DNA from: Rhodovulum adriaticum
GTDB taxonomy: Bacteria > Pseudomonadota > Alphaproteobacteria > Rhodobacterales > Rhodobacteraceae
Direction: 5' to 3'
DNA length: 64,000 bases
Assembly: GCF_004345735.1 (NCBI RefSeq)
Contig: NZ_SLXL01000004.1
Span: 62,001-126,000 of the forward strand
This document shows, in pieces, positions 3,323 to 53,207 of the stretch. A model generated the notes under the pieces. The model saw only the letters and a list, made by a program, of their open reading frames with translations, was not told the DNA's origin and searched no databases. The translations under genes and the position numbers were made by a program. The stretch's first letter is position 1. Each line of letters begins with the position of its first letter.

Positions 3323-5623
<2,301 letters not shown>

Positions 5624-6656: not shown

Positions 6657-6702
6657 AATACGCTTTGTTTCCCTAAATAAATACGCTTTGTTTCCCTAAA
6701 TA
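6657..6702. repeat. Perfect 23-bp tandem duplication upstream of galU
   Basis: Two identical, directly adjacent 23-bp units (6657-6679 and 6680-6702), each containing ACGCTTTGTTTCCCTAAA on the plus strand. The units are AT-rich in an otherwise GC-rich chromosome and lie 40 to 86 nt before the galU start codon. Spacing of 23 bp is about two helical turns, so two protein copies could bind the same face. No further copy was found in the window. Either a paired operator or a recent slippage duplication. Confidence 0.9.
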
Positions 6703-7223: not shown

Positions 7224-8348
7224 ATGAGAGACAACATCGCATCAGACCCGTCATCAGCCCCCTACCGCCGCATCGCGGTGCTTGGCGCGGGATCCTGGGG
7301 AACCGCGCTGGCCGCGGTCCTTGCCCGTAACGGCCAATCCGTCGCCCTGTGGGCACGGCGGCCCGAACTTGCCGAACAGATCAACACGACCGGCCAGAAC
7401 CCCGATTACCTGCCCGGCATCGCCCTGCCCGACGGTATCACCGCAACCGCCAACCTGGCCCGCGCGCTGAGTGGGGCAGAGGCGGTGTTGATGGTCACCC
7501 CCTCTGCCACGCTACGCCAGATGTGCCGCAACGCGGCGCCGCACCTGCCCGACGGCATCCCCATTGCGCTGTGCGCCAAGGGGATCGAGCGGGGCAGCGG
7601 CCTGCTGCTGTCCGAGGTCGTCGCGCAAGAGTTGCCGGGCCACCCGGTCGGCGCGATCTCGGGGCCGACCTTCGCGCGCGAAACCGCTTTGGGGCATCCC
7701 ACCGCCGCGACTGTGGCCTTCCCCTTTGCCTATGCCGACCGGCTGGCACCCCTGGCCAGCCCGGCCGCACGGCTGGCCATGTCGCTGGGCGGCGGCGGGT
7801 TCCGCCCTTATGTCTCGGACGATCTGGTCGGGGTAGAGGTCGGCGGCGCGATCAAGAACGTGATTGCCATTGCGTGCGGGATGATGTCTGGCGCGGGCTT
7901 TGCCGAAAACACCCGTGCCGCCCTGATCGCCCGCGGCATGGACGAGATGAAGGCCCTGGCCGAGGCATTGGGCGGCAAACGCGAAACCGTCACCGGCCTG
8001 TCCGGCGCAGGCGACCTGACGCTGACCTGTTCTTCGGCAACCTCGCGCAACATGTCGCTGGGCATGCAGCTGGGCCAGGGTCTGCCGCGCGCGGTCTGTT
8101 TCGATGGCAGCCCCGTGGTGGTGGAGGGCGAGGTAAACGCCGCCTCGGTCATCGACCTGGCGCGCCGGATCGGCGTTGCCATGCCGATCTGTGAAACCGT
8201 GCACGCCATCCTGCACGAGGGCGCCGACCTGGAGCGCAGCTTTTCCGACCTGTGGACGCGCCCGATCGAGGCCGAGCCGCGCGCGCTGGACCTGATGCTG
8301 GACCATCCCTCGCCGACCGATCCCCTGCCCTTCGGAGAACCCGCATGA
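7224..8348 (+). CDS. gpsA: Glycerol-3-phosphate dehydrogenase [NAD(P)+]
   Basis: Reduces dihydroxyacetone phosphate to sn-glycerol-3-phosphate. 374 aa; Rossmann motif GAGSWG at 21-26, AISGPTFARE in the middle and the substrate/catalytic region EVGGAIKNVIAIACG and GLSGAGDLTLTC. ATG 7224 is chosen as it leaves a short N-terminal lead (MRDNIASDPS) before the Rossmann strand; no strong Shine-Dalgarno is visible, and a longer in-frame form from 7098 looks non-coding. Its stop overlaps the next start (ATGA), and two genes later is a glucosylglycerol-phosphate synthase, so this copy probably feeds glycerol-3-phosphate to osmolyte synthesis as well as to lipids. C-terminus has a roughly 25-aa extension. 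Confidence 0.95.
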   Translation: MRDNIASDPSSAPYRRIAVLGAGSWGTALAAVLARNGQSVALWARRPELAEQINTTGQNPDYLPGIALPDGITATANLARALSGAEAVLMVTPSATLRQMCRNAAPHLPDGIPIALCAKGIERGSGLLLSEVVAQELPGHPVGAISGPTFARETALGHPTAATVAFPFAYADRLAPLASPAARLAMSLGGGGFRPYVSDDLVGVEVGGAIKNVIAIACGMMSGAGFAENTRAALIARGMDEMKALAEALGGKRETVTGLSGAGDLTLTCSSATSRNMSLGMQLGQGLPRAVCFDGSPVVVEGEVNAASVIDLARRIGVAMPICETVHAILHEGADLERSFSDLWTRPIEAEPRALDLMLDHPSPTDPLPFGEPA

Positions 8349-9127
8349 CCATTGCACAAACCCTGACCCCGCCGCTGTCGGCCCGCCGCTTCGTGCTGGC
8401 CACCGATCTGGACGGCACCTTCTTGGGCGGATCGGAATCCGACCGGCGCACGCTTTATGACTGGATCGAGGCCAACCGCGTCAGCGTCGGGCTGATCTTC
8501 GTCACCGGCCGCGACCCTGCGTTCATCATGGAAATGTGCGCAGAGCGCGGGCTGCCCTGGCCCGATTACGTCGTGGGCGACGTGGGGACCACCATCGCCG
8601 AGGTGGTGCCGCGCCGCGCGATCAACCCCATCCCCGCGCTGGAGGCTGACATCGCCAACCGATGGGGCGACAAGGGCGCGGAGGTGCGCGAAACGCTGGA
8701 CGGGCACCCCGGCCTGACCCTGCAACCCACCGCGTTCCGCCACCGGGTCAGCTTCGATCTGGACCCGGCTGCCTATTGCCCCAGTGCCGAGGACAAGATC
8801 GCAGGCCTGGGCCTGGACTGGCTGATTTCGGACAACCGGTTTTTCGACGTGTTGCCCAAGGGTGTCTCCAAGGGGCCGTCGCTGCGGCGGCTGGTAGAGC
8901 ATCTGGGCATCCCCGAACATCGCGTGCTGGCTGCTGGCGACACGCTGAACGACCTGTCCATGCTGGAATGCGGGTTGAATGCGGTGGCCGTCGGCAATTC
9001 CGAACCCGCGCTGCTGGATCGCGTGCGCGAACTGGACCATCTGCACACCGCCCGCGCCCACGGCGCCGGCGGTATCCTGGAGGCCATCGCCGCCTTCGCC
9101 CTTCACGACACCCCGCAAGGAGCCTGA
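8345..9127 (+). CDS. HAD-family phosphatase, probable glucosylglycerol-3-phosphatase
   Basis: 260-aa HAD hydrolase of the sucrose-phosphatase/mannosyl-phosphoglycerate-phosphatase type (Cof-like cap). Nucleophile motif DLDGTF at 21-26 and the late GDTLNDLSML motif giving the Mg-binding acidic pair; FVTGRDP corresponds to motif II. Start overlaps the gpsA stop by 4 nt and its own stop is 1 nt from the ggpS start, so the three genes are translationally coupled. In Pseudomonas-type GgpPS enzymes a HAD phosphatase is fused to the synthase; here the same pair appears as separate genes. Function is inferred from this context; sucrose- or trehalose-phosphate are the alternative substrates. Confidence 0.8.
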   Translation: MTIAQTLTPPLSARRFVLATDLDGTFLGGSESDRRTLYDWIEANRVSVGLIFVTGRDPAFIMEMCAERGLPWPDYVVGDVGTTIAEVVPRRAINPIPALEADIANRWGDKGAEVRETLDGHPGLTLQPTAFRHRVSFDLDPAAYCPSAEDKIAGLGLDWLISDNRFFDVLPKGVSKGPSLRRLVEHLGIPEHRVLAAGDTLNDLSMLECGLNAVAVGNSEPALLDRVRELDHLHTARAHGAGGILEAIAAFALHDTPQGA

Positions 9128-9128
9128 A

Positions 9129-10628
9129 ATGCCCTCGAACCTGGTCATCGTCTATCACCGCCAACCCTATGAGGAGGTGGAAGTCGATGGGAAAACCGTC
9201 TTTCGCGAGAACAAGAGCCCCAACGGCATCGTGCCCACGCTGAAAAGCTTCTTCGGGCGGTTCGAAAGCGGCGCCTGGGTCGCCTGGAAACAGGCCGAGG
9301 ATACCTCTAACCCCGATTTCGACCGGGTGGTCGAGATCGAGGACGCCTATGGCAAATACACCGTGTCGCGCCTGCCGCTGACCGCCGAACAGGTCAAAAG
9401 CTTCTACCACGTTACCTCGAAAGAGGCGTTCTGGCCAATCCTGCATTCCTTCAAGGAACGCTATAACTACGACCCGGTCGATTGGCCCACCTTCCGCGAG
9501 GTGAACTGGGCCTTTGCCGAGGCCGCCGCCGCCGAGGCGGCAGAGGGCGCCGTGGTCTGGGTGCATGACTACAACCTGTGGCTGGTGCCGGGCTATCTGC
9601 GCACCATGCGCCCCGACCTGAAGATCAGCTTTTTCCACCACACGCCGTTTCCGTCGGCCGACATGTTCAATGTGCTGCCCTGGCGCAAGGAAATCGTCGA
9701 AAGCCTGCTGGCCTGCGACGTGGTCGGCTTTCACATCCCGCGCTATGCGGCAAACTTCGTGTCCGTTGCGCGCAGCCTGTGCGATGTCGATGTCACCCGC
9801 CGCGAAAAGGTAGACCCCGAATTCGCGGCCGAGGTCACGGCGCTGTCCGAACGCAGCGTGCCGACCGAACTGGTGCATGACGGGCGCGTCGTGGCGGTGC
9901 AGGCCTCGCCGGTGGGGGTGGATGCCGAGTATATCGACCGCGTCGCCCGCCTGCCCGAAACCGAGGATCGGCTGACCGATATTCGCGCCGATCTGGGCGG
10001 GGGCAAGCTGATCCTGTCGGTCGGGCGCACCGACTATACCAAGGGCGGGATCGAACAGTTGCTGAGTTTCGAACGCCTGCTGGAAACCCGCCCCGATCTG
10101 CGGGGCAAGGTGCGGCTGATGCATGTGTCCGTGCCCGCCAACCGCAACATGACCGTCTACGAGAATATCCAGAGCGACCTTGAGCAGATGGCCGGGCGCA
10201 TCAACGGCCGTTTCGGTACGCTGGACTGGCAGCCTATCGCGCTGATTTCCCGCGCGATCCCGTTCACCGAACTGGTGGCCTATTACCGCGCGGCGGATGT
10301 CGCCTGGATCACGCCACTGGCCGACGGGATGAACCTGGTGGCCAAGGAATTCTGCGCTGCCCGCGTCGATGGCGACGGGATGCTGGTGTTGTCGGAATTC
10401 GCGGGCGCCGCCGTGGAAATGGGGTCGGCCCTGCTGACCAACCCGTTTTCGCACCGTTCCATGGACAGCGCGATTTCACAAGCGCTGGAGATGGCCGAGG
10501 ACGAACGCCGCGACCGCATGGCGGCGCTGCATGACATCGTGCACCGCCACGATATCCGCTTCTGGGCAGAGGACCAGATGCGCGCCCTGCTGCCCGGCAC
10601 GTCGCCCGCCCCCTCGGCGGCGGCCTGA
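9129..10628 (+). CDS. ggpS: Glucosylglycerol-phosphate synthase (GT20)
   Basis: Transfers glucose from ADP-glucose (family activity) to glycerol-3-phosphate, giving glucosylglycerol phosphate, precursor of the compatible solute glucosylglycerol. 499 aa. The opening VIVYHRQPYEEVEVDGKTV and SPNGIVPTLKSFF (30-42) is the GgpS pattern rather than that of trehalose-phosphate synthase; shared GT20 elements follow: HDYNLWLVP (146-154), FFHHTPFPS (168-176), GRTDYTKGG, and DGMNLVAKEF. AAGGAG precedes the ATG. Position after gpsA and a HAD phosphatase gives all three steps from DHAP to glucosylglycerol. An OtsA assignment is less likely. Confidence 0.9.
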   Translation: MPSNLVIVYHRQPYEEVEVDGKTVFRENKSPNGIVPTLKSFFGRFESGAWVAWKQAEDTSNPDFDRVVEIEDAYGKYTVSRLPLTAEQVKSFYHVTSKEAFWPILHSFKERYNYDPVDWPTFREVNWAFAEAAAAEAAEGAVVWVHDYNLWLVPGYLRTMRPDLKISFFHHTPFPSADMFNVLPWRKEIVESLLACDVVGFHIPRYAANFVSVARSLCDVDVTRREKVDPEFAAEVTALSERSVPTELVHDGRVVAVQASPVGVDAEYIDRVARLPETEDRLTDIRADLGGGKLILSVGRTDYTKGGIEQLLSFERLLETRPDLRGKVRLMHVSVPANRNMTVYENIQSDLEQMAGRINGRFGTLDWQPIALISRAIPFTELVAYYRAADVAWITPLADGMNLVAKEFCAARVDGDGMLVLSEFAGAAVEMGSALLTNPFSHRSMDSAISQALEMAEDERRDRMAALHDIVHRHDIRFWAEDQMRALLPGTSPAPSAAA

Positions 10629-41429: not shown

Positions 41430-42125
41430 ATGTTTGACCGTTCCATCAAGATCGCGCCGTCGATCCTGTCGGCCGATTTCGCCAATTTCGGGCAGGAAAT
41501 CCGGGCCATCGAGGCGCAGGGCGCCGATTGGGTGCATGTGGACGTGATGGACGGGCATTTCGTCCCGAACCTCACCTTCGGCCCCCCCGCGGTGAAGGCG
41601 TTCCGCCCGCATGTCAAAACCTTCATGGACGTGCATCTGATGATCGCGCCGGTGGACCCCTATATCGAAGCGTATGCCGAGGCCGGCGCGGACATGATTA
41701 CCGCCCATGTCGAGGCGGGCCCGCATATCCACCGCACGTTGCAGGCGATCAAGGCGCAGGGCGTCAAGGCCGGTGTCGTGCTGAACCCCGGCACCCCCGC
41801 CGAGGCGGTCGAGGACGTGCTGGACCTGTGCGACATGGTCCTGATCATGACGGTGAACCCCGGTTTCGGCGGGCAGAAGTTCATCCATTCCGGCGTGGAA
41901 AAGACCCGCAAGATCCGCAAGATGATCGGCGACCGCCCGATCCACATCCAGATCGACGGCGGCATCACGCCCGAAACCGCGCCGCTGGTCGTGGCAGCGG
42001 GCGCCGACGTTCTGGTCGCGGGCTCTGCCGTGTTCAAGGGCGGCTCGGTCGATACGCCCGAGGTCTACGGCGCCAATATCCGCGCCATCCGCGAGGCCGC
42101 CGAGGCCGCGCAACAGGCCGCCTGA
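41430..42125 (+). CDS. rpe: Ribulose-phosphate 3-epimerase (CbbE)
   Basis: 231-aa TIM-barrel enzyme interconverting xylulose- and ribulose-5-phosphate. Motifs: [49 protein letters not shown] and [11 protein letters not shown] with the catalytic Asp and metal-binding His residues. CGGGAGGAAACG precedes ATG. Last gene of the cbb operon, ended by a hairpin. Confidence 0.97.
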
Positions 42126-42137
42126 TCCATCATATCC

Positions 42138-42173
42138 AACGCTCCGCGCCCGACACCCGGACGCGGGGCGTTT
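42138..42173 (+). terminator. Intrinsic terminator after rpe (end of cbb operon)
   Basis: AACGCTCCGCG and CGCGGGGCGTT form an 11-bp stem (one G-T pair) with a 13-nt loop, followed by TTCG. It lies 13 nt after the rpe stop and fits the end of the fbp-rpe transcript. Confidence 0.75.
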
Positions 42174-42309
42174 CGCCCTCTGGCCCATGGCGATGTAATC
42201 CGCCGCCCAGTGCCCCCACCCCGCCCCAACGGGCCGGGTGCCGCGTCTTCCCCCTAGCCTCACACATATGAATGCGTCTATGCTTGTGGCATAAGGGAGG
42301 AATTCAACC

Positions 42310-43254
42310 ATGATCCGCAAAGCACTTGCTTGTGCCTTGCTGGCAGCGCCCGCGTTCGCCAGCGAGGATATCGCAGACCAGTACCCCCAATCGGTTCTGT
42401 ACGAAAAGCCGGTCGAGGTGATCCCGCATGTCTACTCGGCCATCGGAGCCACCGCGCCGCCGACCTATGAAAACGCAGGCCATAACAACAACCTGTCCTT
42501 CATCGTGACCGGCGACGGGGTGATCGTTGTGAACGCGGGCGCCAACGCCAAACTGGCCGAGGCGCTGCATCAGGAAATCAAGGCCGTCACCGATCAGCCC
42601 GTGCGCCTGGTCATCAACGAAAACGGCCAGGGCCACGCCATGCTGGGCAACAGCTACTGGGCGGCGCAGGGGGTGGATATCCTGGCCCACGCCGATGCCA
42701 AGGCGGTGTTCGAGGACAACGCCTTTCAGATCCTGTCCGGCATGCAGCGCTACGCCCGCGAGAATTCCGACGGCACCGAGGCGGTCGGCCCGAACCTGAC
42801 CTTCGAGGACCGCTACGACATCGAGATGGGCGACATGACAATCGAGGTGCTGCACCTTGGCCCTGCCCATTCGGAGGGCGACATTTCCGTCTGGCTGCCC
42901 GAACAGAAGCTGATCATCGCGGGCGACGTGGCCTTCCACGAACGCATGCCGCCGATCTTCTCGGAAACCTGCACAAGCTGCTGGATCGAGACCTGGAACG
43001 AGGCATTCGAACCCCTGGGTGCGCTTTACGTCATTCCGGGCCACGGCCACCCGACCAACGTGGCCCAGGTGCGCCGCTACACCCATGATTACCTGGTCTA
43101 CCTGCGCGGCAAGATTGGCGAACATCTGGACAACGGTGGCAGCCTGAATGACGCCTACTATGTGGACCAGAGTCCTTACGCGCATCTGGACACCTACGAA
43201 GAGTTGGCAACCAAGAACGCCGGCGTCGTCTACACGGAAATGGAGTTCGAATAA
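42310..43254 (+). CDS. Exported metallo-beta-lactamase-fold protein with degenerate metal motif
   Basis: 314 aa with signal peptide (MIRKALACALLAAPAFA). MBL-fold pieces are present: His187 in GPAHSEGD, Asp206 in IIAGDVAF, His245 in VIPGHGHPTN. The primary HxHxDH motif is not: the equivalent segment reads NGQGHAMLGN (105-114), and the usual VDTG is VVNAG. So one metal half-site looks destroyed while the other remains. AAGGGAGGAATTC upstream. First of a coupled operon with a thioredoxin-fold gene (1-nt overlap), gph and cbbY. Substrate unknown; SoxH or quinoprotein-relay hydrolase families are related possibilities. Confidence 0.8.
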   Translation: MIRKALACALLAAPAFASEDIADQYPQSVLYEKPVEVIPHVYSAIGATAPPTYENAGHNNNLSFIVTGDGVIVVNAGANAKLAEALHQEIKAVTDQPVRLVINENGQGHAMLGNSYWAAQGVDILAHADAKAVFEDNAFQILSGMQRYARENSDGTEAVGPNLTFEDRYDIEMGDMTIEVLHLGPAHSEGDISVWLPEQKLIIAGDVAFHERMPPIFSETCTSCWIETWNEAFEPLGALYVIPGHGHPTNVAQVRRYTHDYLVYLRGKIGEHLDNGGSLNDAYYVDQSPYAHLDTYEELATKNAGVVYTEMEFE

Positions 43255-43811
43255 TGGCCGTTTCGACCCCGATCTGCGATTTCGGCTGGCAGGCCCCCGA
43301 TTTTGCCCTGCCCGGCACCGACGGCAAGACCTGGCGGTTGGAGGACGTGCGCGGCCCCAAGGGAACGCTGGTGATGTTCATCTGCAACCATTGCCCCTAC
43401 GTGATCGCGGTGCGCGACCGGATCATCCGCGATGCGCGCGCGTTGCAGGGACTGGGGATCGGGGTCGTGGCCATCAGCTCCAACGACGCGGACGCCTACC
43501 CCGAGGACAGCTTCGACAAGATGAAGGAACTGGCCAGGGAACTGGACCTACCCTTCCCCTATCTCTATGACGAGGATCAGTCGGTCGCGCGCGCCTATGA
43601 TGCCGTCTGCACCCCCGATTTCTTCGGCTTCGATGCCGGTCTGGGGTTGCAGTATCGCGGTCGGCTGGATGCCTCGCGCAAGCAGGCCGGTCCCCCCGAC
43701 CTGCGCCGCGATCTGTTCGAGGCAATGAAACAGGTGGCCGAAACCGGCCACGGACCAGAGGAGCAGATCCCCTCCATGGGCTGCTCGATCAAATGGAAGG
43801 ACGCCGCGTGA
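43254..43811 (+). CDS. Thioredoxin-fold (redoxin) protein with CxxC
   Basis: 185-aa cytosolic redoxin of the AhpC/TSA-thioredoxin superfamily. APDFALPGTDGKTWRLEDVRG is the redoxin opening and MFICNHCPYV carries CNHC, a CxxC pair at the thioredoxin position. VCTPDFFGFDAG holds the cis-proline-like turn; another Cys is near the C-terminus (SMGCSIKWK). No signal peptide, so it is not a TlpA-type exported reductase. Starts inside the stop of the MBL gene and overlaps gph (GTGA). Role in the autotrophy cluster is unknown; thiol-based redox protection is plausible. Confidence 0.82.
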   Translation: MAVSTPICDFGWQAPDFALPGTDGKTWRLEDVRGPKGTLVMFICNHCPYVIAVRDRIIRDARALQGLGIGVVAISSNDADAYPEDSFDKMKELARELDLPFPYLYDEDQSVARAYDAVCTPDFFGFDAGLGLQYRGRLDASRKQAGPPDLRRDLFEAMKQVAETGHGPEEQIPSMGCSIKWKDAA

Positions 43812-44467
43812 AGGCCATCATCTTCGACCTCGACGGCACGCTGATCGACAGCGCGCCCGACATCCATGCCGCCGTGAATAAGACGCTGGCCGAAACCGGC
43901 GACGGCGAACTGGATCTGGACACAGTGCGCGATTTCATCGGCAACGGCGTCCATGTGCTGATCGAACGGGTGATCGCGGCGCGCGGCCTGTCTGCCGACC
44001 GCCACCCGGCGATGCTGGAAAGCTTCCTGAAGCATTACGAGGCCGACCCCGCCACGCTGACAACGCTGTTTCCCGGCGTTCAGGACTGCGTGGAATCCCT
44101 GCATGACGAGGGGTTCGCCCTGGGCCTGTGTACGAACAAACCCGAGGGACCGTCGCGCGCGATCCTTCAGGCCTTTGGGCTGGACAAGTATTTCGGCGCC
44201 GTGGTCGGCGGCGACACGGTCGGGACGAAAAAGCCCGATCCCGCGCCGCTGCTGGCGGTCAAGGACAAGCTGGGGGCGCGCGTGGCCGTCTATATCGGCG
44301 ACAGCGAAATCGACGGTGAATGCGCACAGCGCGCGGGTATGAAATTCGCCCTTTTCACCGAGGGGTATCGCCACAAGGGCCTGCACGAAATCCCGCACGA
44401 GGCCCGCTTTGACGATTTCGATGTGCTGAGTGCCATCGCCGGCCGCCTGGCGGAAGAAAACCGATGA
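43808..44467 (+). CDS. gph: Phosphoglycolate phosphatase (CbbZ/Gph)
   Basis: 219-aa HAD phosphatase that removes 2-phosphoglycolate made by the RuBisCO oxygenase reaction. Nucleophile motif IIFDLDGTLIDSAPDIHAAVN, then PGVQDCVESL, LCTNKPEG (motif II), GTKKPDPAPLL (motif III lysine) and YIGDSEIDGECAQRAGM (motif IV). GTG 43808 overlaps the upstream stop; an ATG 15 nt earlier inside the previous gene gives a slightly longer form. Location next to cbb genes supports the assignment. Confidence 0.93.
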   Translation: MKAIIFDLDGTLIDSAPDIHAAVNKTLAETGDGELDLDTVRDFIGNGVHVLIERVIAARGLSADRHPAMLESFLKHYEADPATLTTLFPGVQDCVESLHDEGFALGLCTNKPEGPSRAILQAFGLDKYFGAVVGGDTVGTKKPDPAPLLAVKDKLGARVAVYIGDSEIDGECAQRAGMKFALFTEGYRHKGLHEIPHEARFDDFDVLSAIAGRLAEENR

Positions 44468-45168
44468 CCTTGCAGGCGTTGATCTTCGACGTGGACGGCA
44501 CGCTGGCGGAGACGGAAGAGCTCCACCGGCAGGCCTTCAACGAAACCTTCGCCGAATGGGGGCTGGACTGGAGCTGGAGCCGCGACGACTACCGCGTGCT
44601 GCTGAAGACTGGCGGCGGGAAGGAACGGATCGCAGCCTTTCAGGCCACCCTGCCCGAGGGTGCGCGCCGTCTGTCCGGGGACGAGATCAAGGCCCTGCAC
44701 AAGGACAAGACCACGCGCTATGGCGCGCTGATCGCCCACGGTCATCTGGAACTGCGCCCCGGCGTGGCCGACCTGATCGAAAAGGCACGCGAGGCCGGTC
44801 TGAAACTGGCGCTGGCCACCACCACCTCGCGCCCCAATGTCGAGGCGCTGACCCGCGCCTGCTGGGGCAAGGCAGCCGCCGATGTGTTCCCCGTGATCGC
44901 CTCGGGCGACGAGGTGGCGCACAAGAAGCCCGACCCAGAGATCTACAACCTTGCGCTGAAACGGCTGGGCCTGCCGCCCAAGGATTGCATGGCCTTCGAG
45001 GACAGCCGCATCGGCCTGCATTCCGCGATGGGGGCCGGGCTGCCTGTGGTGGTCACACCCAGCCTTTATACCGACGAGGAAGAGCATATGGGCGCGGCCC
45101 ACCGCATCCCCGATCTTTCCCGCCAGAACTGGCCGCTGATGCTGGTGGCCCGGCTCTGTTCCGACTGA
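44464..45168 (+). CDS. cbbY: CbbY, xylulose-1,5-bisphosphatase-type HAD phosphatase
   Basis: 234 aa. IFDVDGTLAETEELHRQAFNETFAEWGL is the CbbY opening, followed by LLKTGGGKERI, ATTTSRP, KKPDPEIYNLAL and FEDSRIGLHSAMGAGL. Characterised CbbY proteins hydrolyse xylulose-1,5-bisphosphate, a misfire product that inhibits RuBisCO; I infer the same here. Its start overlaps the gph stop (ATGA), giving a two-gene metabolite repair unit. Confidence 0.93.
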   Translation: MTLQALIFDVDGTLAETEELHRQAFNETFAEWGLDWSWSRDDYRVLLKTGGGKERIAAFQATLPEGARRLSGDEIKALHKDKTTRYGALIAHGHLELRPGVADLIEKAREAGLKLALATTTSRPNVEALTRACWGKAAADVFPVIASGDEVAHKKPDPEIYNLALKRLGLPPKDCMAFEDSRIGLHSAMGAGLPVVVTPSLYTDEEEHMGAAHRIPDLSRQNWPLMLVARLCSD

Positions 45169-45193
45169 TCGCGTCGACCGGCCCTTGCCGGGC

Positions 45194-45220
45194 GGGGGCC
45201 AGCCGATAGGATTGGCCCCC
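45194..45220 (+). terminator. Hairpin after cbbY
   Basis: GGGGGCCA and TGGCCCCC form a perfect 8-bp stem with an 11-nt loop, 25 nt after cbbY and 33 nt before the next start. No T-run. Possible attenuator between cbbY and the DUF442-oxidoreductase gene. Confidence 0.45.
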
Positions 45221-45252
45221 ACCGCCGCCATCAGAGGAAGGATACCCGCCGC

Positions 45253-46929
45253 ATGGAAATCAGGCCGATCTCGCCCAGTTTCGCGGCCGCGCCGCAGATC
45301 GGCCCCGAGGATGTGCCCGGCATCGCCGCAGCGGGCTACAAGACCATCGTCTGCAACCGCCCCGACGGCGAGGCCGACAACCAGCCCCGCGCCGCCCAGA
45401 TCGCCGAGGCGGCGCGCGCCGCCGGGCTGGAATACCGTTTCCTGCCGATCCGTCCGGGCCGGATGACGCCCGAGGCCGTCGCCCGGTTCGACGAGGTGCT
45501 GAAAACCTGCAAGGGGCCGATCCTGGCGTATTGCCGGACCGGGAACCGCTCGTCCTCGGTCTGGGCGCTGGCGCGGGCCCGGTTGCTGTCGCCACAGGCT
45601 ATCCTGGCTGCGACCGCGCAGGCGGGATACGATCTGGAGGGGTTGAAACCCCTGCTGGACGAGGCCTTCGGCGCCCCGGTCGGCAGCACGGAACCCGTGC
45701 GCTATGACGTGCTGGTGATCGGCGGCGGCGCGGGCGGGATCGCTGCCGCGGCCTCGCTCCTGAAACGGCGGCAAGGTCTGAAGCTGGCCATTGTAGAGCC
45801 GAGCGAGCACCACGATTATCAGCCCGGCTGGACGCTGGTCGGCGCGGGTCTGCTGGACCGCGCCGATACCGTGCGCCGCACAGCCGACATCCTGCCCAAG
45901 GGCGCCAAGTGGATCCGCGGCGCCGTGGCCAGTTTTGACCCCGATACCTCCGAGGTGACGCTGGAGGATGGCGCGCGCTTCGGCTATCGGGTGCTGCTGG
46001 TCGCGCCGGGCCTGAAACTGGACTGGGACGCGGTGCCGGGCCTGCGGGAAACGCTGGGCGAACACGGCGTCACGTCGAATTACCGGGGCGAGTTGGCCCC
46101 CTATACCCGCGATCTCGTGCGGGGAATGCGGTCCGGCCGGGCGCTGTTCACCGCGCCGCCCCTGCCCTACAAATGCCCCGCCGCACCGCACAAGGCGCTG
46201 TTCATGTCCGCCGACACCTGGCGCCGGGCGGGTGTTCTGGACGAAATCGACGTCACCTTCTGCACGGCGGCCGAGCGTTTCTTTCACGTACCCGCCTTCG
46301 CCCCCGCGCTGGACGGTTATGCAAGGCGCTATGGCGTGAACATCGCATGCGGTCACACCCTTGTTGCCGTGGACGGCCCCGCCCGGCGCGCGACCTTGCA
46401 GACCGGCGACGGCGCGCAGGTCGAACACCCCTTCGACATGCTGCATGTCAGCCCGCCCCAGGCGCCCCTGGACGTGGTGGCCGGATCGCCCCTTGCCGAT
46501 GCGCAGGGTTGGGTGGACGTGGACCCCGGCACCCTGCGCCATACGCGGTTCGACAACATCTTCGGGCTGGGGGACGGCTGTTCCACCCCCAACGCCAAGA
46601 CTGCCGCCGCGGTGCGCAAACAGGCCCCCGTCGCCGCGGTCAACGCGCTGGCCACCCTGGATGGCACCGCCCTGCCCGCACGCTATGACGGCTACGGATC
46701 GTGCCCGGTGACGGTGGAACGGGGCAAGGTGGTGCTGGCGGAATTCGGCTATGACGGCGCGCCTCTGCCCAGCCTGCCGACCTGGCTGATCGACGGCACG
46801 CGCCCCTCGCACCTGGCGTGGATGCTGAAGGAACGGCTGTTCCCGCCGATCTACTGGCAGGGCATGTTTAAGGGGCGGGAATACCTGGCCGGGCCGCAGA
46901 TGACATTCCGGCCCGTGGCGCAGGACTAG
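45253..46929 (+). CDS. DUF442 (TIGR01244) - sulfide:quinone-oxidoreductase-like fusion protein
   Basis: 558 aa. Residues 1-135 are a DUF442/TIGR01244 phosphatase- or rhodanese-like domain with loop CRTGNR (Cys94, Arg99). Residues 150-555 are a type II SQR-like flavoprotein: FAD-binding GGGAGGIAAA (157-166), EPSEHHDYQPGWTLVGAG, PYKCPAAPHKALF with Cys308, and DGCSTPNAKTAAAVRKQAPV with Cys443, matching the two redox cysteines of the mitochondrial-type SQR. Cysteine chemistry suggests oxidation of sulfide to polysulfide, with the N-terminal domain handling the sulfane sulfur. It follows the gph-cbbY operon on the same strand. Confidence 0.88.
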   Translation: MEIRPISPSFAAAPQIGPEDVPGIAAAGYKTIVCNRPDGEADNQPRAAQIAEAARAAGLEYRFLPIRPGRMTPEAVARFDEVLKTCKGPILAYCRTGNRSSSVWALARARLLSPQAILAATAQAGYDLEGLKPLLDEAFGAPVGSTEPVRYDVLVIGGGAGGIAAAASLLKRRQGLKLAIVEPSEHHDYQPGWTLVGAGLLDRADTVRRTADILPKGAKWIRGAVASFDPDTSEVTLEDGARFGYRVLLVAPGLKLDWDAVPGLRETLGEHGVTSNYRGELAPYTRDLVRGMRSGRALFTAPPLPYKCPAAPHKALFMSADTWRRAGVLDEIDVTFCTAAERFFHVPAFAPALDGYARRYGVNIACGHTLVAVDGPARRATLQTGDGAQVEHPFDMLHVSPPQAPLDVVAGSPLADAQGWVDVDPGTLRHTRFDNIFGLGDGCSTPNAKTAAAVRKQAPVAAVNALATLDGTALPARYDGYGSCPVTVERGKVVLAEFGYDGAPLPSLPTWLIDGTRPSHLAWMLKERLFPPIYWQGMFKGREYLAGPQMTFRPVAQD

Positions 46930-46961: not shown

Positions 46962-48332
46962 TCAGCCCAGAACCGTACGAATGGCCTTGGCAGTGGTGGC
47001 GACGATCTGGTCGGCCTCTTCGCGGCTCAGGCTCAGCGGCGGGGCAAAGCCCAGGATGTCACCCTGCGGCATGGCGCGGGAAATCACGCCCTCCTTGACC
47101 ATCTCGGCGACCACGGCCCCCGCCGTCTTGCCCGCCGGGTCGTAAAAGGTCCGCGCGCCCTTGTCCGCGACCAGTTCCACGGCGCACAACATCCCCTCGC
47201 CGCGCACCTCGCCCACGTGGGGGTGTTCGAGCAGGGCCTCTGTCATGGCTGCGGTGAAATAGCCACCGACCTCGGCCGCGTTCTGCACCAGGTTCATCTC
47301 GTCGATCAGTTTCAGGTTGGCGACCCCGGCTGCCGCCCCGATCGGGTGGGCCGAGTAGGTCCAGCCATGGCCGATGGGGCCGTTTTCGTCGGTGCCCTGT
47401 TCCAGCACCTTCCACATGCGGTCCGACACGATGGACCCCGACAGCGGCGCATAGGCCGAGGTCAGGCCCTTTGCGATGGTGATCAGGTCCGGCTTCAGCC
47501 CGTAATGGTCCGAGCCGAACATGCTGCCCAACCGGCCGAAGCCGGTGACCACCTCATCCGCAATCAGCAGGATGTCGTGCTTTTCCAGGATCGGCTGGAT
47601 CGCCTCCCAATACCCGGCGGGCGGTGGCACGATGCCCCCGGTGCCCATCACCGGCTCGCCGATGAACGCGGCGATGGTCTCCGGGCCCTCGCGCTCGATC
47701 AGCGCTTCCAGCTCGGACGCGCAATGGGCGACGAAATCGGCCTCGGACATATCCAGATCGGGGCGGCGGAAATAATAGGGCGCCTCGGTGTGCAGCACAG
47801 CGTCCAGCGGCAGGTCGAACTTGTTGTGGAACAGCCCCAGCCCGGTCAGCGACCCGGTCATCAGCCCCGACCCGTGATAGCCCCGCCAGCGCGAGATGAT
47901 CTTCTTCTTCTCGGGGCGGCCCAGGATGTTGTTGTAATACCAGACCAGCTTGATGTTGGTCTCGTTCGCGTCCGACCCGGACAGGCCGAAATAGACCTTG
48001 GACATGTGATCGGGGGCGCGGTCCATCACCATCTTGGCAAGCGTGATGCTGGCCTCGGTGCCGTGGCCGACATAGGCGTGGTAATAGGCCAATTCGCGCG
48101 CCTGTTCGGCGATGGCCTCGGCGATCTCTGTCCGGCCATAGCCCACGTTCACGCAATAAAGCCCGGCAAAGGCGTCCAGCAGGCGGTTGCCCTCGCGATC
48201 CTCGATGAAGGAGCCCTGACCGCCCTTGACCACCCGCTGCGGGGCCTCGCCACGGGCGAATTGCGCCAGGTGGGTCGAGGGGTGAAAGAAGTTATCCCGG
48301 TCCCATTGCTCCAGCATGTCGTTCTTCAGCAT
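46962..48332 (-). CDS. Class III aminotransferase, probable diaminobutyrate transaminase of ectoine breakdown (DoeD-like)
   Basis: 456-aa PLP enzyme. PLP-binding Lys288 in ITIAKGLTSAY, Asp259 in LLIADEVVTGFGR, GLSGSDANETNIKLVWYYNN and WTYSAHPIGAAAG mark the putrescine/GABA/omega-amino-acid aminotransferase group. Sequence alone would also fit putrescine or beta-alanine transamination. The order AsnC regulator, semialdehyde dehydrogenase, aminotransferase next to doeA matches the asnC-ssd-atf block of marine Rhodobacterales ectoine clusters, so L-2,4-diaminobutyrate to aspartate-semialdehyde is the favoured role. 110 nt after the dehydrogenase gene. Confidence 0.85.
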   Translation of the reverse strand: MLKNDMLEQWDRDNFFHPSTHLAQFARGEAPQRVVKGGQGSFIEDREGNRLLDAFAGLYCVNVGYGRTEIAEAIAEQARELAYYHAYVGHGTEASITLAKMVMDRAPDHMSKVYFGLSGSDANETNIKLVWYYNNILGRPEKKKIISRWRGYHGSGLMTGSLTGLGLFHNKFDLPLDAVLHTEAPYYFRRPDLDMSEADFVAHCASELEALIEREGPETIAAFIGEPVMGTGGIVPPPAGYWEAIQPILEKHDILLIADEVVTGFGRLGSMFGSDHYGLKPDLITIAKGLTSAYAPLSGSIVSDRMWKVLEQGTDENGPIGHGWTYSAHPIGAAAGVANLKLIDEMNLVQNAAEVGGYFTAAMTEALLEHPHVGEVRGEGMLCAVELVADKGARTFYDPAGKTAGAVVAEMVKEGVISRAMPQGDILGFAPPLSLSREEADQIVATTAKAIRTVLG

Positions 48333-48370
48333 TTCGCGTCCTTCTCCGTTCGGAAGGGGTCACTGCCCCC

Positions 48371-48400
48371 TCCTTCTTCTTGGTTCAAATACCCCCGCCG
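48371..48400 (-). repeat. Dispersed intergenic element, copy 2 (before the aminotransferase)
   Basis: On the minus strand, CGGCGGGGGTATTTGAACC followed by AAGAAGAAGGA, between the dehydrogenase stop and the aminotransferase start. Same pattern as at 25411-25440. Here its purine end is about 39 nt before the ATG, so it is not acting as that gene's Shine-Dalgarno. Confidence 0.75.
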
Positions 48401-48442
48401 GAGGCCCGATTTTCGCAGAAACATCGATCCCCGGCGGCATCA

Positions 48443-49927
48443 TCATGCCCAGTCGCGGCAGACATACTTCACTTCGGTAAAGGCCTCCATCCCCAGCCTG
48501 GCGCCCTCGCGGCCCAGGCCCGACTGCTTCATGCCGCCAAAGGGGATCGGCGCACCGGTGACCTTGGTCCGGTTGACCGCGACCATCCCGAATTGCAGGG
48601 CGCGGGCCACGCGGTAGATGCGGCGCGGCGCGCGGGTGTGGACATAGGCGACCAATCCGTACTCGGTTGCGTTGGCCCGCGCGATCACCTCTTCCTCGGT
48701 CTCGAAGGGGGTGATCGCCGCCACCGGGCCAAAGGTTTCTTCGGCCATGATTTTTGCCCCATCGGGCACGTCGGCCAGTACGGTGGGGCGATAGAACAGC
48801 GGCCCGGCCTCGTGCAGGGTGCCCCCGGTCAGCAGCCGCGCACCCTGATCCAGCGCGTCGGCGACGTGCTCTTCCTGCTTGGCGATGGCGGCCGCGTTCA
48901 TCAGCGGGCCGATGTCGGGGTCGTCAAGGCCCCGCCCCACGCTCAAGTTTGCCGTTGCCTCGGCAAAGCGGGCGCAGAAATCGTCATAGACCGGCGCCTC
49001 GACATAGAAGCGGTTGGCGCCCAGGCAGTCCTGCCCCGAGGTCGCGAATTTCGCCTTGATCGCCTCGGCGACCGCCTCGTCCAGGTCGGCATCGGCAAAG
49101 ACGATGAAGGGCGCGTGCCCGCCCAGTTCCAGCACCAGACGTTTCACCGTTTCGGCCGACTGGCGATACAGCAGCCGCCCCACCTGCGTCGACCCGGTAA
49201 AGGACAGCGCGCGCACGCGGGTATCCTGCGTCCAGGGTGCGACAACAGTGGGCGCATCGCCGGTGACCACGTTGAACACGCCCGGGGGCAGCCCCGCGCG
49301 TTCGGCCAGTTCCGCCAGGGCCAATGCGGAAAACGGCGTTTCGTGCGAGGGGTGCGCAACCACCGTGCAGCCCGCCGCCAGCGCCGCGCCCGCCTTGCGC
49401 GTCAGCATGGCCGAGGGGAAGTTCCACGGCGTGATCAGCGCGGCCACGCCCACGGGTTCGCGCCACAGCTCCATCTCGGCGTCGGCCAGATGGCTGGTCA
49501 CGCCCTCGATATTGGGGCGCTTGGCCTCTTCGGCGTAGAACTCCAGAAAGGAGGCGGCATAGTCGATCTCGCCGCGCGCCTCGGACAGGGGCTTGCCCTG
49601 TTCCAGCACCATCAGGCGCGCCAGATCTTCGCGGTTTTCCTCCATCAGGCGGAACCAGCGGCGCAGCAGGGCGGATCGTTCCTGCGGCAGCATGCCGGAC
49701 CAGATGGCAAAGGCCGCTTGGGCCGCATCGACCGCGGCGGCGCTGTCGGTTTCGGTCAGGGCCGCGACCTCGCCCAGCCACTCACCGCTGGCCGGATCGG
49801 TGACTGCAAAGGTGCCCCCGGCGCTGCCGCCGGTCCACTTGCCCCCCACATAGGCAAAACTGCGCACCAGGCGCGGGTCGCTCAGATCGGCGAGGGCCGA
49901 TTTGGGCAGGGAATGATGCAGGGTCAT
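48443..49927 (-). CDS. Semialdehyde dehydrogenase (SSADH family), probable DoeC-like
   Basis: 494-aa aldehyde dehydrogenase. Catalytic Cys301 in ATSGQDCLGANRF, general-base Glu267 in LELGGHAPF, ITPWNFPSAMLTRK, and the SSADH-like SYVGGKW-type start (AYVGGKWTGG). The usual CTVVLKPxxxTP loop reads CTVVAHPSHETP: the lysine that contacts the cofactor phosphate in NADP-using enzymes is His192. ATG 49927 has GGAAGGAG upstream. In this context it should oxidise aspartate-semialdehyde to aspartate; succinate-semialdehyde is the alternative. Confidence 0.88.
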   Translation of the reverse strand: MTLHHSLPKSALADLSDPRLVRSFAYVGGKWTGGSAGGTFAVTDPASGEWLGEVAALTETDSAAAVDAAQAAFAIWSGMLPQERSALLRRWFRLMEENREDLARLMVLEQGKPLSEARGEIDYAASFLEFYAEEAKRPNIEGVTSHLADAEMELWREPVGVAALITPWNFPSAMLTRKAGAALAAGCTVVAHPSHETPFSALALAELAERAGLPPGVFNVVTGDAPTVVAPWTQDTRVRALSFTGSTQVGRLLYRQSAETVKRLVLELGGHAPFIVFADADLDEAVAEAIKAKFATSGQDCLGANRFYVEAPVYDDFCARFAEATANLSVGRGLDDPDIGPLMNAAAIAKQEEHVADALDQGARLLTGGTLHEAGPLFYRPTVLADVPDGAKIMAEETFGPVAAITPFETEEEVIARANATEYGLVAYVHTRAPRRIYRVARALQFGMVAVNRTKVTGAPIPFGGMKQSGLGREGARLGMEAFTEVKYVCRDWA

Positions 49928-50042
49928 GGCGCGTCTCCTTCCGCTGTCGGGATGGGGGAAGGATGCACCGGCCCGCGCAGAGAAGGGGACCAAATCACCC
50001 GGCCCGCACAGAAGGATCAACTGCGACCCTCGCGCGGGGCAG

Positions 50043-50531
50043 TCAATCCTTCTGCAAACCGGCCAGCAGGGCCAGCGGCGGGGCCTCTGGCCCTTTCACC
50101 GGCTTGGTGACAACGTAAGTGTAGTAGCGCGCCAGCCCGATCCGGTCGGCCAGCATCCGGTCGATCATCCGCTGGTAACTGTCGATATCGCGGGTGACGA
50201 CCTGCATCAGGTAATCGAAGCCGCCCCCAAGCGCCCAGCAGGCGGTAATCTCGGGGTACTCGTCCAGCGCGCCCTCGAACCGGGTGAAATCCTCGACCTT
50301 GTGGCCATCCAGTTCGGCGGCAACGAAAACGGTCACATGGGGCCCAAGCGCCCGCAGCGACAACTCAGCCCGGTAGCCCGCGATCAGGCCCGCCCGTTCC
50401 AGCCGTTTCAGCCGTTCCCAGGCCGGCGTGGCCGACAGGTTGATGCGGCGGGCAAGATCCGCCTTGGTGATGCGCCCCTCTGCCGAGAGGATGCGCAGGA
50501 TGGCGATATCGCGGTCGTCCAGGCGCAGCAT
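50043..50531 (-). CDS. Lrp/AsnC-family regulator, probable DoeX-like
   Basis: 162 aa. N-terminal winged helix-turn-helix (LDDRDIAILRILSAEGRITKADLARRINLSATPAWERLKRLE, about 4-45) and a C-terminal RAM/Lrp ligand domain (ITACWALGGGFDYLMQVV). Divergent from doeA and upstream of the dehydrogenase and aminotransferase, as is the AsnC regulator of known ectoine catabolic clusters. Ligand is presumably a pathway intermediate such as N-acetyl-diaminobutyrate or diaminobutyrate (inferred). Confidence 0.9.
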   Translation of the reverse strand: MLRLDDRDIAILRILSAEGRITKADLARRINLSATPAWERLKRLERAGLIAGYRAELSLRALGPHVTVFVAAELDGHKVEDFTRFEGALDEYPEITACWALGGGFDYLMQVVTRDIDSYQRMIDRMLADRIGLARYYTYVVTKPVKGPEAPPLALLAGLQKD

Positions 50532-50820
50532 CAGGGCCGGTTCCTTCCCGGCACATCCGGGGCGGCTGGGACCGCGACAGGCGACCCGGTCACCGGATGG
50601 CCCCGGATGGGGGCAGCGCCGCCCAAGATTTCATCATGCTTCGGGCGCGCCACCGTCATCCCCTTGTCGTTTCAGCGCAATTTCCCGCCGCCCTTGGACA
50701 GCCCTTGACGCCGATCCTGCTGTTCCGTCACATGGGCCGGTCGCGTCAGGCCCGCCCGGGCAACCCCCGGACAGCATCACGCGGCCCAGCCCGAAGTCAA
50801 GCGCGGCCGAAGGAGCAGCT
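50532..50820. promoter_or_regulatory. Divergent control region between the AsnC gene and doeA
   Basis: 289 nt without a gene, expected to hold promoters for both directions and the AsnC operator. I see no strong palindrome; the AAGATTTCATCATGCTTC stretch near 50625 and CAGCGCAATTTCCCG near 50672 are the most AT-rich parts. The doeA ribosome site AAGGAG is at its right end. Confidence 0.5.
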
Positions 50821-52044
50821 TTGAACACCATGACCGAGCAGATCGTCCAGTTCGGCTATGCCGCCGAGGGGCGCGCCCCCTTCAGCCTGGCCGAGTATGA
50901 ACGCCGCCTGGGCCTTGTCCGCCGCGCGATGGAACAGCGCGGCATCGACCTTCTGTTCGTCGAGGATCCGTCGAACATGGCCTGGCTGACCGGCTATGAC
51001 GGCTGGTCGTTCTACGTCCATCAGGGGGTGCTGATCTTTCACGACGCCGACCCGATGTGGTGGGGCCGCCAGCAGGACGCAAACGGCGCGGTCCGCACGG
51101 TCTGGATGGCGGGGGTGCATATCACCCATTACGCCGACAATTACGTGCAATCCACCGAACGCCACCCGATGCAGCAACTAGCCGGGATCATCCACGACCT
51201 GGGGTATGGTGCCAAACGGATCGGGGTGGAGATGGACAATTACTACTTCTCCGCCAAGGCCTATATGACGCTGCGTGAGTCCCTGCCGCAGGCGGATCTG
51301 GTCGACGCCACCGCCCTGGTGAACTGGCAGCGCACGGTGAAATCCGAGGAAGAGCTAGACTTCATGCGCCGCGCGGCGAAGATCTCCGAAAAGATCATCG
51401 ACGGCGTGGTAGACCGGATCGAACCGGGCCTGCCCAAGAACGAGCTGGTGGCCGATATCTACCGCGACGCCCTGACCGGGCTGGACGGCGATTGGGGCGA
51501 TTACCCGGCGATCGTGCCGCTGCTGCCCTCGGGCGCGGATGCGGCGGCCTCGCACCTGACATGGGACGGGCGCGCCTTTGCAACCGGCGAGGCGACGTTC
51601 TTCGAAATCTCGGGCTGTTATCGCCGCTATCATGCGCCGTTCTGCCGGACGGTGTTCCTGGGTGAGCCGCCTGATTACATGCGCGCCGCCGAAGCCGCGC
51701 TGATCGAGGGGATCGAGGCCGGTCTGTGGGCCGCCAAGGCGGGCAATCGCGCCTGCGACGTGGCCAATGCGCTGGCCGCCCCCCTGGAACGCGCGGGCAT
51801 CGAGCGGGGCGCGCGCTGCGGCTATCCCATCGGCATCAGCTACCCGCCCGATTGGGGCGAGCGGACGATTTCCCTGCGCCCCGAGGATGAAACCGTGCTG
51901 GAGCCGGGCATGACCTTTCACTTCATGCCCGGCCTTTGGATGGAAAACTGGGGGCTGGAAATCACCGAGTCGATCCTGATCCGCGAGGACGGCCCGGCCG
52001 AATGCTTCTGCGACCGGCCCCGCAAGCTGTACGTGAAGACCTGA
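50821..52044 (+). CDS. doeA: Ectoine hydrolase DoeA
   Basis: 407-aa M24 (creatinase/prolidase) family protein. It carries the long near-invariant blocks I recognise from DoeA/EutD: DPSNMAWLTGYDGWSFYVHQ, RRQQDANGAV-type GRQQDANGA, VEMDNYYFSAKAYM, DYPAIVPLLPSGADA, and GYPIGISYPPDWGERTISLRP with FHFMPGLWMENWGLEITESI. DoeA opens the ectoine ring to N-acetyl-2,4-diaminobutyrate. Generic annotation would be Xaa-Pro peptidase. Start: TTG 50821 sits 5 nt from AGGAG; ATG 50830, three codons on, is the alternative. Its TGA overlaps the next ATG. Confidence 0.92.
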   Translation: MNTMTEQIVQFGYAAEGRAPFSLAEYERRLGLVRRAMEQRGIDLLFVEDPSNMAWLTGYDGWSFYVHQGVLIFHDADPMWWGRQQDANGAVRTVWMAGVHITHYADNYVQSTERHPMQQLAGIIHDLGYGAKRIGVEMDNYYFSAKAYMTLRESLPQADLVDATALVNWQRTVKSEEELDFMRRAAKISEKIIDGVVDRIEPGLPKNELVADIYRDALTGLDGDWGDYPAIVPLLPSGADAAASHLTWDGRAFATGEATFFEISGCYRRYHAPFCRTVFLGEPPDYMRAAEAALIEGIEAGLWAAKAGNRACDVANALAAPLERAGIERGARCGYPIGISYPPDWGERTISLRPEDETVLEPGMTFHFMPGLWMENWGLEITESILIREDGPAECFCDRPRKLYVKT

Positions 52045-53207
52045 TGCCCACGCTGGAACAGACCCGCGCGATCCTGGCCGATCTGGTGGCCTTTCCCACC
52101 GTGTCATCGGACAGCAACCTGGAAATGATCGTGCATATCGCCGCGATGCTGGGCGATCTGGGCGCGCATGTGGATCTGTTCCACGACGACGGCGGGCACA
52201 AGGCCAACCTGTTCGCAACGCTCGGCCCGCGCGAGGCGGGCGGCGGGATCGTTCTGTCGGGGCATACGGACGTTGTGCCGGTCACCGATCAGGACTGGGC
52301 CACCGATCCGTTTCAATTGCACGAGGCCGAGGGACGCCTTTACGGGCGCGGCACCTGCGACATGAAGGGATTCATCGCGGCCACACTGGCCATGGCGCCG
52401 ACCTATGCCGCGCTGGATCTGAAGAAACCCCTGCATTTCGCCTTTACCCATGACGAAGAGGTCGGCTGCCTGGGCGGTCAGGCGCTGGTGGCCGAACTGG
52501 CGGCACGGGGCATCCGCCCAGACATTGCGCTGATCGGCGAACCGACAGAAATGCGCATCGTCGAGGCGCACAAGGGCTGCTGCGAATATACCGTGCGGTT
52601 CAATGGGCAAGAGGGGCACGGATCGAACCCCGCGGCAGGCGTGAACGCCGCCGAGGCCGCCGTGCGCTATGTCGCCCGCCTGATGGACCTGGCCGAGGTG
52701 CTTAAGGCACGCGCGCCGGAAAACAGCCCCTTTACGCCCCCGTGGACCACGGTCAACCTGGGCCGGATTGCCGGGGGGCACGCCCATAACGTCATCCCCG
52801 GCCGCGCAGAGGTGGATTGGGAAATGCGCCCCGTGCTGGCCGCCGACATCGCCTTCGTCAAGGACGCGATGGCGACCCATGTCCGCGATACGCTGCTGCC
52901 CGCGATGCGCCAGGTCATGCCCGAGGCCGACATCCTGACCGAGGTGATCGGCGAGGTTGCGGGGCTGGAACCGATGGAGGACAGCGCCGCGCGCGCGCTG
53001 CTGATGGAGCTGACCGGCCAGGACCGCGCCGAAACCGTCCCCTTCGCGACCGAGGCAGGGCTGTTTCAGGGACTGGGCTGCGCGGCAGCCGTCTGCGGGC
53101 CGGGATCCATCGCGCAGGCACACAAGGCGGATGAATTCATCAGTTTCGACCAGTTGGGCCAATGCCTGGACATGCTGCAGGCGTTGGGTGATGTGCTGAC
53201 GCGGTAG
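52044..53207 (+). CDS. M20 ArgE-like deacetylase, probable N-acetyl-diaminobutyrate deacetylase
   Basis: 387-aa zinc peptidase-family deacetylase. Metal and catalytic motifs: SGHTDVVPV (His74), GRGTCDMKG (Asp106), THDEEVGCLG (Glu138, Glu139), GEPTEM and a dimerisation domain with GQEGHGSNP. By similarity it is acetylornithine deacetylase (ArgE). It starts within the doeA stop codon, so it is translationally coupled to ectoine hydrolase, whose product, an acetylated diamino acid, closely resembles acetylornithine. I infer that it replaces DoeB/EutE, which belongs to an unrelated (M14-like) family and is absent here. Biosynthetic ArgE remains possible. Confidence 0.85.
   Translation: MPTLEQTRAILADLVAFPTVSSDSNLEMIVHIAAMLGDLGAHVDLFHDDGGHKANLFATLGPREAGGGIVLSGHTDVVPVTDQDWATDPFQLHEAEGRLYGRGTCDMKGFIAATLAMAPTYAALDLKKPLHFAFTHDEEVGCLGGQALVAELAARGIRPDIALIGEPTEMRIVEAHKGCCEYTVRFNGQEGHGSNPAAGVNAAEAAVRYVARLMDLAEVLKARAPENSPFTPPWTTVNLGRIAGGHAHNVIPGRAEVDWEMRPVLAADIAFVKDAMATHVRDTLLPAMRQVMPEADILTEVIGEVAGLEPMEDSAARALLMELTGQDRAETVPFATEAGLFQGLGCAAAVCGPGSIAQAHKADEFISFDQLGQCLDMLQALGDVLTR

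Follow-up and report, generated by a model that had tools for sequence, protein, structure and literature searches.

The stretch of DNA that we analyzed, referred to below as the window, comprises 64,000 nucleotides of the Rhodovulum adriaticum genome and holds, at positions 46962 to 53207, a cluster of five genes centered on a gene for the ectoine hydrolase DoeA/EutD. We designated the plus-strand gene at 50830..52044 as doeA from the matches of its product to TIGR02993 (602.7 bits, just under the cut-off of 613; E 3e-181) and to the structures 6TWJ/6TWK (519 bits), and the protein is 60% identical to the crystal sequence of Halomonas elongata DoeA. The ATG at 50830 was chosen as the start, with an alternative TTG 9 bases upstream. 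Directly after doeA on the same strand lies a gene for an ArgE-like M20 metallo-deacetylase (52044..53207), which we propose to be an N-alpha-acetyl-L-2,4-diaminobutyrate deacetylase. The stop codon of doeA (TGA, 52042-52044) and the start codon of the M20 gene (ATG, 52044-52046) have one base in common, and this TGATG overlap (52042..52046, plus strand) probably couples translation of the two genes.

Three further genes lie on the minus strand. An Lrp/AsnC-family regulator that resembles DoeX/AsnC (50043..50531; Pfam AsnC_trans_reg and a helix-turn-helix domain) occupies the position that such a regulator has in other doe clusters, and the divergent intergenic region between it and doeA (50532..50829) is presumed from the gene layout to be a promoter region. 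Beyond it are a DoeC/Ssd-like aldehyde dehydrogenase (48443..49927; Pfam Aldedh), a putative aspartate-semialdehyde dehydrogenase, and a DoeD/Atf-like class III aminotransferase (46962..48332; Pfam Aminotran_3; PRK07482 at 825.5 bits, cut-off 687), a putative L-2,4-diaminobutyrate transaminase. The dehydrogenase reads from an ATG at 49927 with GGAG upstream, and its top NCBIfam models are SSADH-like, at scores below their cut-offs. The original prediction had placed all five genes, and the M20 start inside the doeA stop codon, where we find them.

The grouping of DoeA with an AsnC-type regulator and DoeC and DoeD homologues is like that in the doeABXCD / eutDE-asnC-ssd-atf clusters of H. elongata and Ruegeria pomeroyi, in which a deacetylase gene also directly follows the hydrolase gene. 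The window differs from those clusters in that the deacetylase is an ArgE-like M20 protein instead of the AstE/AspA-type DoeB/EutE (so classified in sections of PMC3187862), and in that the window has neither EnuR nor a Ueh or Ehu transporter. Queries with EhuB, UehA, UehC, EnuR, EutB, and EutC gave no window match at E 1e-6 (Ueh was not searched for genome-wide), and queries with EhuA and the polyamine-type ATPase matched the window at just 30-34% identity, near 63.3 kb, at what is probably a generic ABC ATPase gene. The earlier statement that the window contains no ectoine transporter or EnuR therefore stands. From this genomic context we infer with high confidence that the cluster serves ectoine catabolism and that the ArgE-like M20 protein replaces DoeB as the N-alpha-acetyl-diaminobutyrate deacetylase.

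The M20 protein belongs to Pfam Peptidase_M20 and not to the AstE/AspA-type family of DoeB/EutE. It passed the cut-offs of TIGR01892 (391.2 bits, cut-off 297.7) and PRK07522 (464.2 bits, cut-off 412), both named acetylornithine deacetylase, but scored far below the cut-off of the acetylornithine deacetylase equivalog PRK05111 (275 bits, cut-off 460). Residues H74, D76, D106, E138, E139, E166, and H360 are common to the window protein and Escherichia coli ArgE, and we take these to be the metal-binding and catalytic positions of M20 enzymes. N-alpha-acetylornithine, the substrate of ArgE, is one methylene longer than N-alpha-acetyl-diaminobutyrate, and the chemistry fits. Five other residues of the window protein, E174, C179, E181, F186, and W259, form a signature of the doeA-linked M20 proteins that is absent from E. 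coli ArgE. E181 and W259 were found in all 123 of the 123 doeA-linked rows of the alignment, C179 and F186 in 122, and E174 in 117; in two groups of paralogues (9 and 12 rows), no more than one row each had the matching residue at any of the five positions.

A FastTree phylogeny of the M20 proteins contained 166 rows, 157 of them different, since some identical sequences came from both collections; L070 was excluded because a contig edge cuts its M20 gene. The doeA-linked M20 proteins and their unlinked kin grouped together (144 rows), and 21 PRK07522 paralogues, with 36-45% identity to the window protein, fell outside that group. The closest named relatives of the window protein, from four Rhodovulum species, are 83-85% identical. 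In an alignment with DapE, positions 174, 179, and 181 of the window M20 flank H176 and K177, which align with Arg178 and Arg179 of HiDapE. According to a portion of PMC4012986, those two arginines bind a sulfate, which may show where the substrate site is. The residues that these three signature positions flank could face the substrate.

To place the window among its relatives, doeA neighborhoods were surveyed in 199 genomes of the family. Up to 8 kb on each side of the stronger doeA matches was taken, which gave 133 stretches and, with the window, 134 loci. A partial doeA at a contig edge of genome G106 (454 bits) was left out before counting, together with the weaker TIGR02993 matches of a list that was itself truncated at the weak end, and L051, which lacks doeA, was not counted. 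A partner gene was one directly downstream of doeA, on the same strand and within 400 bases. By this definition the partner was a window-type M20 gene at 65 of the 134 loci (window included), DoeB at 26, and neither at 43, some of which are short contigs. No stretch had both M20 and DoeB. The coupled M20 genes that the original prediction had suggested looking for near doeA thus recur at 64 loci besides the window. The adjacency of doeA and the M20 gene is more than chance and is a rule across the family sample, and one correction follows: the M20 arrangement is not peculiar to R. adriaticum but is commoner in this sample than DoeB. The spacing between the two genes is tight, from -4 to +13 bases in 56/65 pairs, with an overlap of 4 or 1 bases in 29/65, when start codons are taken as the nearest plausible ones.

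The partner of doeA also follows the phylogeny of DoeA. In a tree of 135 DoeA rows, for which a quick method was used, 64 of the 65 M20-type rows fell into one clade of 76 rows (support 100) together with 12 rows that have neither partner and no DoeB-type row, and a single change suffices to account for the M20 and DoeB labels on the tree. At the genome level the doeA-M20 pair was present in 65/199 genomes and DoeB above its cut-off in 28/199, and the two overlapped only in G012, which has a classical doeA-doeB cluster plus a separate doeA-M20 pair. The genome sets for these comparisons, and for those with EctB below, were compiled by hand. The DoeA tree also contains a branch of nine rows with neither M20 nor DoeB (L053, L057, L068, L072, L079, L080, L089, L099, and L156). 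Many of these loci, as well as L146 outside the branch, lie near genes that we take to be LuxR-, tsf- or pst-like.

The DoeA proteins of the two cluster types are very similar at conserved positions: 112 alignment columns were near-invariant across M20-type rows and DoeB-type rows alike, and 3 columns separated the types at thresholds that we set. Residue 262 of the 6TWJ chain, whose numbering is shifted by 7 from that of 6TWK, lies within the 112 columns and presumably corresponds to the catalytic glutamate, Glu255. The TIGR02993 cut-off was passed in 38/199 family genomes, with many M20-linked and some DoeB-linked DoeAs falling just below it. Some DoeAs below the cut-off have DoeB partners too, so that the TIGR02993 score alone cannot split the M20-type from the DoeB-type DoeA. 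The window DoeA scored 211 bits against the DoeA_2 model NF038259, for which the cut-off is 575.

Other ectoine genes accompany some of the doeA-M20 pairs. The genes found no more than 8 kb from the 65 pairs included a DoeD-type transaminase at 19, EutB with EutC at 9, AsnC at 7, and EhuB at 5, and any core ectoine gene at 23/65. Genes opposite doeA-M20 passed curated cut-offs for EhuB, EhuC, and EutB at L117, EhuB at L139, and EhuA at L141; EutC at L117 missed the TIGR02992 cut-off (455.8 bits versus 471.65) but passed PRK08291. In Nitratireductor pacificus, Chelativorans petroleitrophicus, and Stappia sediminis, which we believe lie outside the Rhodobacterales, homologues of EutC, EutB, EhuA, and EhuB face doeA-M20. 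In a tree of the DoeD-type transaminases, those from M20-type loci (19) and DoeB-type loci (14) were intermixed, with 5 changes, and the window transaminase is 70-78% identical to 14 transaminases near doeA-doeB pairs, its nearest neighbor by path being from a DoeB locus. The presence of Ehu, EutBC, AsnC, Ssd, and Atf genes at some doeA-M20 loci indicates that the substrate of doeA-M20 clusters is very probably ectoine. Gene position, the mutual exclusion with DoeB, the single change on the DoeA tree, the shared transaminase, and the M20 gene in the DoeB slot at loci that have Ehu, Eut, AsnC, Ssd, and Atf genes lend strong support to the earlier reading, in which an ArgE-like M20 enzyme is a non-homologous substitute for DoeB.

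The names of the two models that the M20 protein passes, and the best-scoring solved structure by sequence, ArgE (7RSF) from what we take to be E. coli, would fit an ordinary acetylornithine deacetylase (ArgE) that follows doeA by chance. This explanation is very improbable. The R. adriaticum genome (3.35 Mb, 99.93% complete) encodes ArgJ (401.5 bits, cut-off 298), and arginine synthesis should therefore need no ArgE, as established pathway knowledge has it. It also has a second PRK07522 gene, on contig C2, whose product is 40% identical to the window M20. The M20 gene was accordingly rejected as the sole argE, a role that the original prediction had named as fatal to its own reading, and ArgJ and the second PRK07522 gene are other candidate routes for the release of ornithine. 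The window M20 shares its family and its metal and catalytic positions with ArgE but differs in its low PRK05111 score, its private signature, which is nearly absent from the paralogues, and its linkage to doeA, a pairing conserved across genera and reaching other families. It is likewise distinctly improbable that DoeB2, an M20D amidohydrolase, or another enzyme encoded elsewhere carries out the deacetylation while the substrate of the M20 enzyme is a by-product, for example the N-gamma isomer or a hydroxylated form. Sections of PMC3187862 report that H. elongata DoeA yields both acetyl isomers and that DoeB does not use the gamma form, and the R. adriaticum genome does have an M20D gene, whose product scores 332 bits against NF038260 (DoeB2) and also matches the amidohydrolase model TIGR01891. 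That score is far below the NF038260 cut-off of 550 (no genome-wide DoeB2 search was made), however, and relatives of the M20D gene were found within the stretches of just 3/134 doeA loci, so that a DoeB2-like gene was rejected as the usual neighbor of doeA. Nor was EutB found above its cut-off in the genome (best match 207.5 bits versus 413), which makes hydroxyectoine use unlikely, and a hydroxyectoine role was rejected. DoeB/EutE (TIGR02994) had no match above its cut-off genome-wide; the best, 61.8 bits versus 402.7, lies on a different contig and in our reading is AstE/AspA-like. A hidden DoeB was thus rejected as well, and the claim that DoeB/EutE is missing, made at first for the cluster, extends at that cut-off to the whole genome.

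A further alternative is that the cluster degrades another cyclic amidine or polyamine-like compound, to which DoeA and the M20 enzyme shifted jointly. The M20-type DoeAs do form a separate clade, and a polyamine-type ABC transporter was found near 26/65 doeA-M20 pairs, 0/26 DoeB pairs, and 5/43 doeA genes with neither partner. EnuR was found within 8 kb of 10/26 DoeB pairs and 0/65 M20 pairs. Against a joint shift stand the almost identical DoeA columns of the two types, the co-occurrence of Ehu, EutBC, AsnC, Ssd, and Atf genes with doeA-M20, the transaminase common to both cluster types, and 4 loci at which the polyamine-type transporter occurs together with the DoeD transaminase. We regard this alternative as improbable. 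The transporter, at L091 (10912-16555) and similar loci, comprises an ATPase, a binding protein, and two permeases, often with a small protein that we take to be DUF1330-like. An ATPase of this type at L271 passed the TIGR01187 PotA cut-off (375.9 bits versus 355.6); one L091 permease resembles PotB but is below the cut-off, and for the L091 binding protein no NCBIfam model reached E 1e-20. In R. adriaticum the transporter ATPase and binding protein are encoded on another contig (L274, G000:C2, about 410303), and genome searches gave no EhuB match at E 1e-60 and no EnuR orthologue (best match 33.7 bits). The polyamine-type transporter may be an ectoine importer or may point to another substrate, and we keep both readings. 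A gene of family 13, presumably of the GntR family, was present in 12 M20-type loci.

Several observations weigh against replacement of DoeB by the M20 enzyme in an ectoine pathway. The window DoeA is 10 bits below the curated TIGR02993 cut-off of 613. No other core ectoine gene was recognized within 8 kb in 42/65 pairs, and the pathway context is therefore drawn from a minority of the loci. The 12 rows of the M20-type DoeA clade that lack an adjoining M20 gene, some at contig edges, also count here, as does the lone M20D gene seen in the R. adriaticum genome. Among the best 80 named relatives of the window M20 that were examined, doeA was directly upstream in 59, and the stretches of the other 21/80 lacked doeA. 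A polyamine-type transporter adjoins four of the 21 (L171, L182, L196, and L242), which also favors another substrate, and 12 of the 21 form one solitary branch (11 Roseovarius and 1 Pelagicola). The pair is rarer outside the family: a class sample of 241 genomes had 31 with a DoeA match at E 1e-120, 27 of these from other families, and an M20 relative (E 1e-100) was beside doeA in 2/27 (G288 and G410). More divergent M20 proteins would be missed outside the family, as adjacency there was judged by comparing coordinates between two match lists. Finally, the sampled genera share ancestry, so that the counts are not independent and the p-values overstate independence.

The solitary M20 branch consists of L198, L200, L209, L218, L220, L223, L225, L227, L232, L233, L235, and L238, of which L232 starts at a contig edge. 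At L200 and L223 the neighbors of the M20 gene look like what we take to be metK and trmB.

With ectoine as the substrate and the M20 enzyme in place of DoeB, the cluster would work as follows. DoeA would open the ectoine ring to give N-alpha-acetyl-L-2,4-diaminobutyrate, and the coupled M20 enzyme, made in step with DoeA, would carry out the deacetylation that DoeB/EutE otherwise performs. DoeD would then convert diaminobutyrate to aspartate semialdehyde and DoeC oxidize this to aspartate, with the AsnC-type regulator presumably controlling the cluster. EctB is encoded in the R. adriaticum genome (594 bits, cut-off 552), and the organism therefore probably makes ectoine; after an osmotic down-shift, the cluster may serve to recycle ectoine that the cell itself has made. 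Across the family sample the doeA-M20 pair was present in 31/50 genomes with EctB and in 34/149 others (Fisher p 1e-6, not corrected for kinship). DoeB above its cut-off was present in 9/50 and 19/149, respectively, a difference that is not significant (p 0.35). The enrichment of the pair with EctB, and the lack of a significant one for DoeB, suggest recycling of home-made ectoine.

Related arrangements were found in a few other families. At L268 (genome G288) DoeA and M20 are 57% and 64% identical to those of the window and lie beside AT, LRP, EutC, and EutB homologues, and in genomes G297 and G384 close M20 proteins are encoded away from doeA. At L267 (4313-10333), also from another family, the gene order is doeA-M20-asnC-ssd-atf, which is the order of the H. 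elongata cluster as given in sections of PMC3187862. The L267 DoeA scores 702 bits, and the L267 M20 is 45% identical to the window protein and keeps E181, F186, and W259 without E174 or C179; it was perhaps recruited independently. In a 1.2-Mb genome, L271 (a stretch with 32% GC; 3026-9490) has a EutA-like gene (192 bits versus 318), a doeA of divergent sequence (464 bits), and a polyamine-type ABC transporter, all reading in one direction, and its M20 gene, about 10 kb from doeA, keeps C179, E181, F186, and W259. One wider proposal would join these observations: an EnuR-free module with a third, so far unrecognized deacetylase family (ArgE-like, with E181 and W259) would be usual in the family, above all in ectoine producers, with the polyamine-type transporter often serving as its ectoine importer and related parts found in a small number of other families as well as the 1.2-Mb low-GC genome. 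We advance this tentatively, as a proposal that is somewhat doubtful when taken as a whole.

The doeA-M20 cluster is a new variant of the known ectoine pathway and not a new kind of system. A second correction is that an M20-superfamily deacetylase is already named for the ectoine pathway in NCBIfam, as DoeB2 (NF038260). DoeB2 is named for the same reaction that we propose for the window M20. As judged via the M20D protein with 332 bits to DoeB2, which also matches TIGR01891, it shares the superfamily but is of another M20 subfamily, since BLASTP of that protein against the window M20 was not significant (E 0.42). Among the families matching the window M20, the 25 best of 49 did not include NF038260 and went down to 72 bits. 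Parts of PMC7192451 describe a methanotroph DoeB that is 22% identical to H. elongata DoeB and whose mutant shows N-alpha-acetyl-diaminobutyrate after down-shock; our guess is that this protein founds NF038260. AbgB is also an M20 protein. Clusters in Bacillota without eutE and with abgB, a putative amidohydrolase, are reported in parts of PMC13188858; like the window they lack eutE, but by the description there they are set apart by phylum, gene order, and deep EutD branches. In Ruegeria sp. TM1040 the location of doeA away from doeB was already noted in sections of PMC3187862. We found no proposal of an ArgE-like M20 protein as a EutE replacement in those parts of the open-licence ectoine literature that were covered, with subscription journals mostly outside that scope.

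Many marine bacteria, R. adriaticum included, seem to use an enzyme of a different family for the second step of ectoine breakdown. Two surveys of ectoine users, as represented by portions of PMC8739950 and PMC13188858, rest on genomes that hold eutD plus eutE. Because the doeA-M20 pair is present in 65/199 genomes and DoeB in 28/199, such a rule would miss more candidates in this family sample than it finds, and many of the missed candidates are ectoine producers. If the proposed role of the M20 enzyme is true, it changes the view of who eats or recycles ectoine in the sea, and one metabolic step would be filled by three different enzyme groups.

Upstream of the cluster, positions 41430-46929 of the window hold genes that, from their translations, presumably encode a ribulose-phosphate 3-epimerase-like protein, two HAD phosphatase-like proteins, a metallo-beta-lactamase-like protein, and a 558-amino-acid FAD/sulfide-quinone-reductase-like protein.

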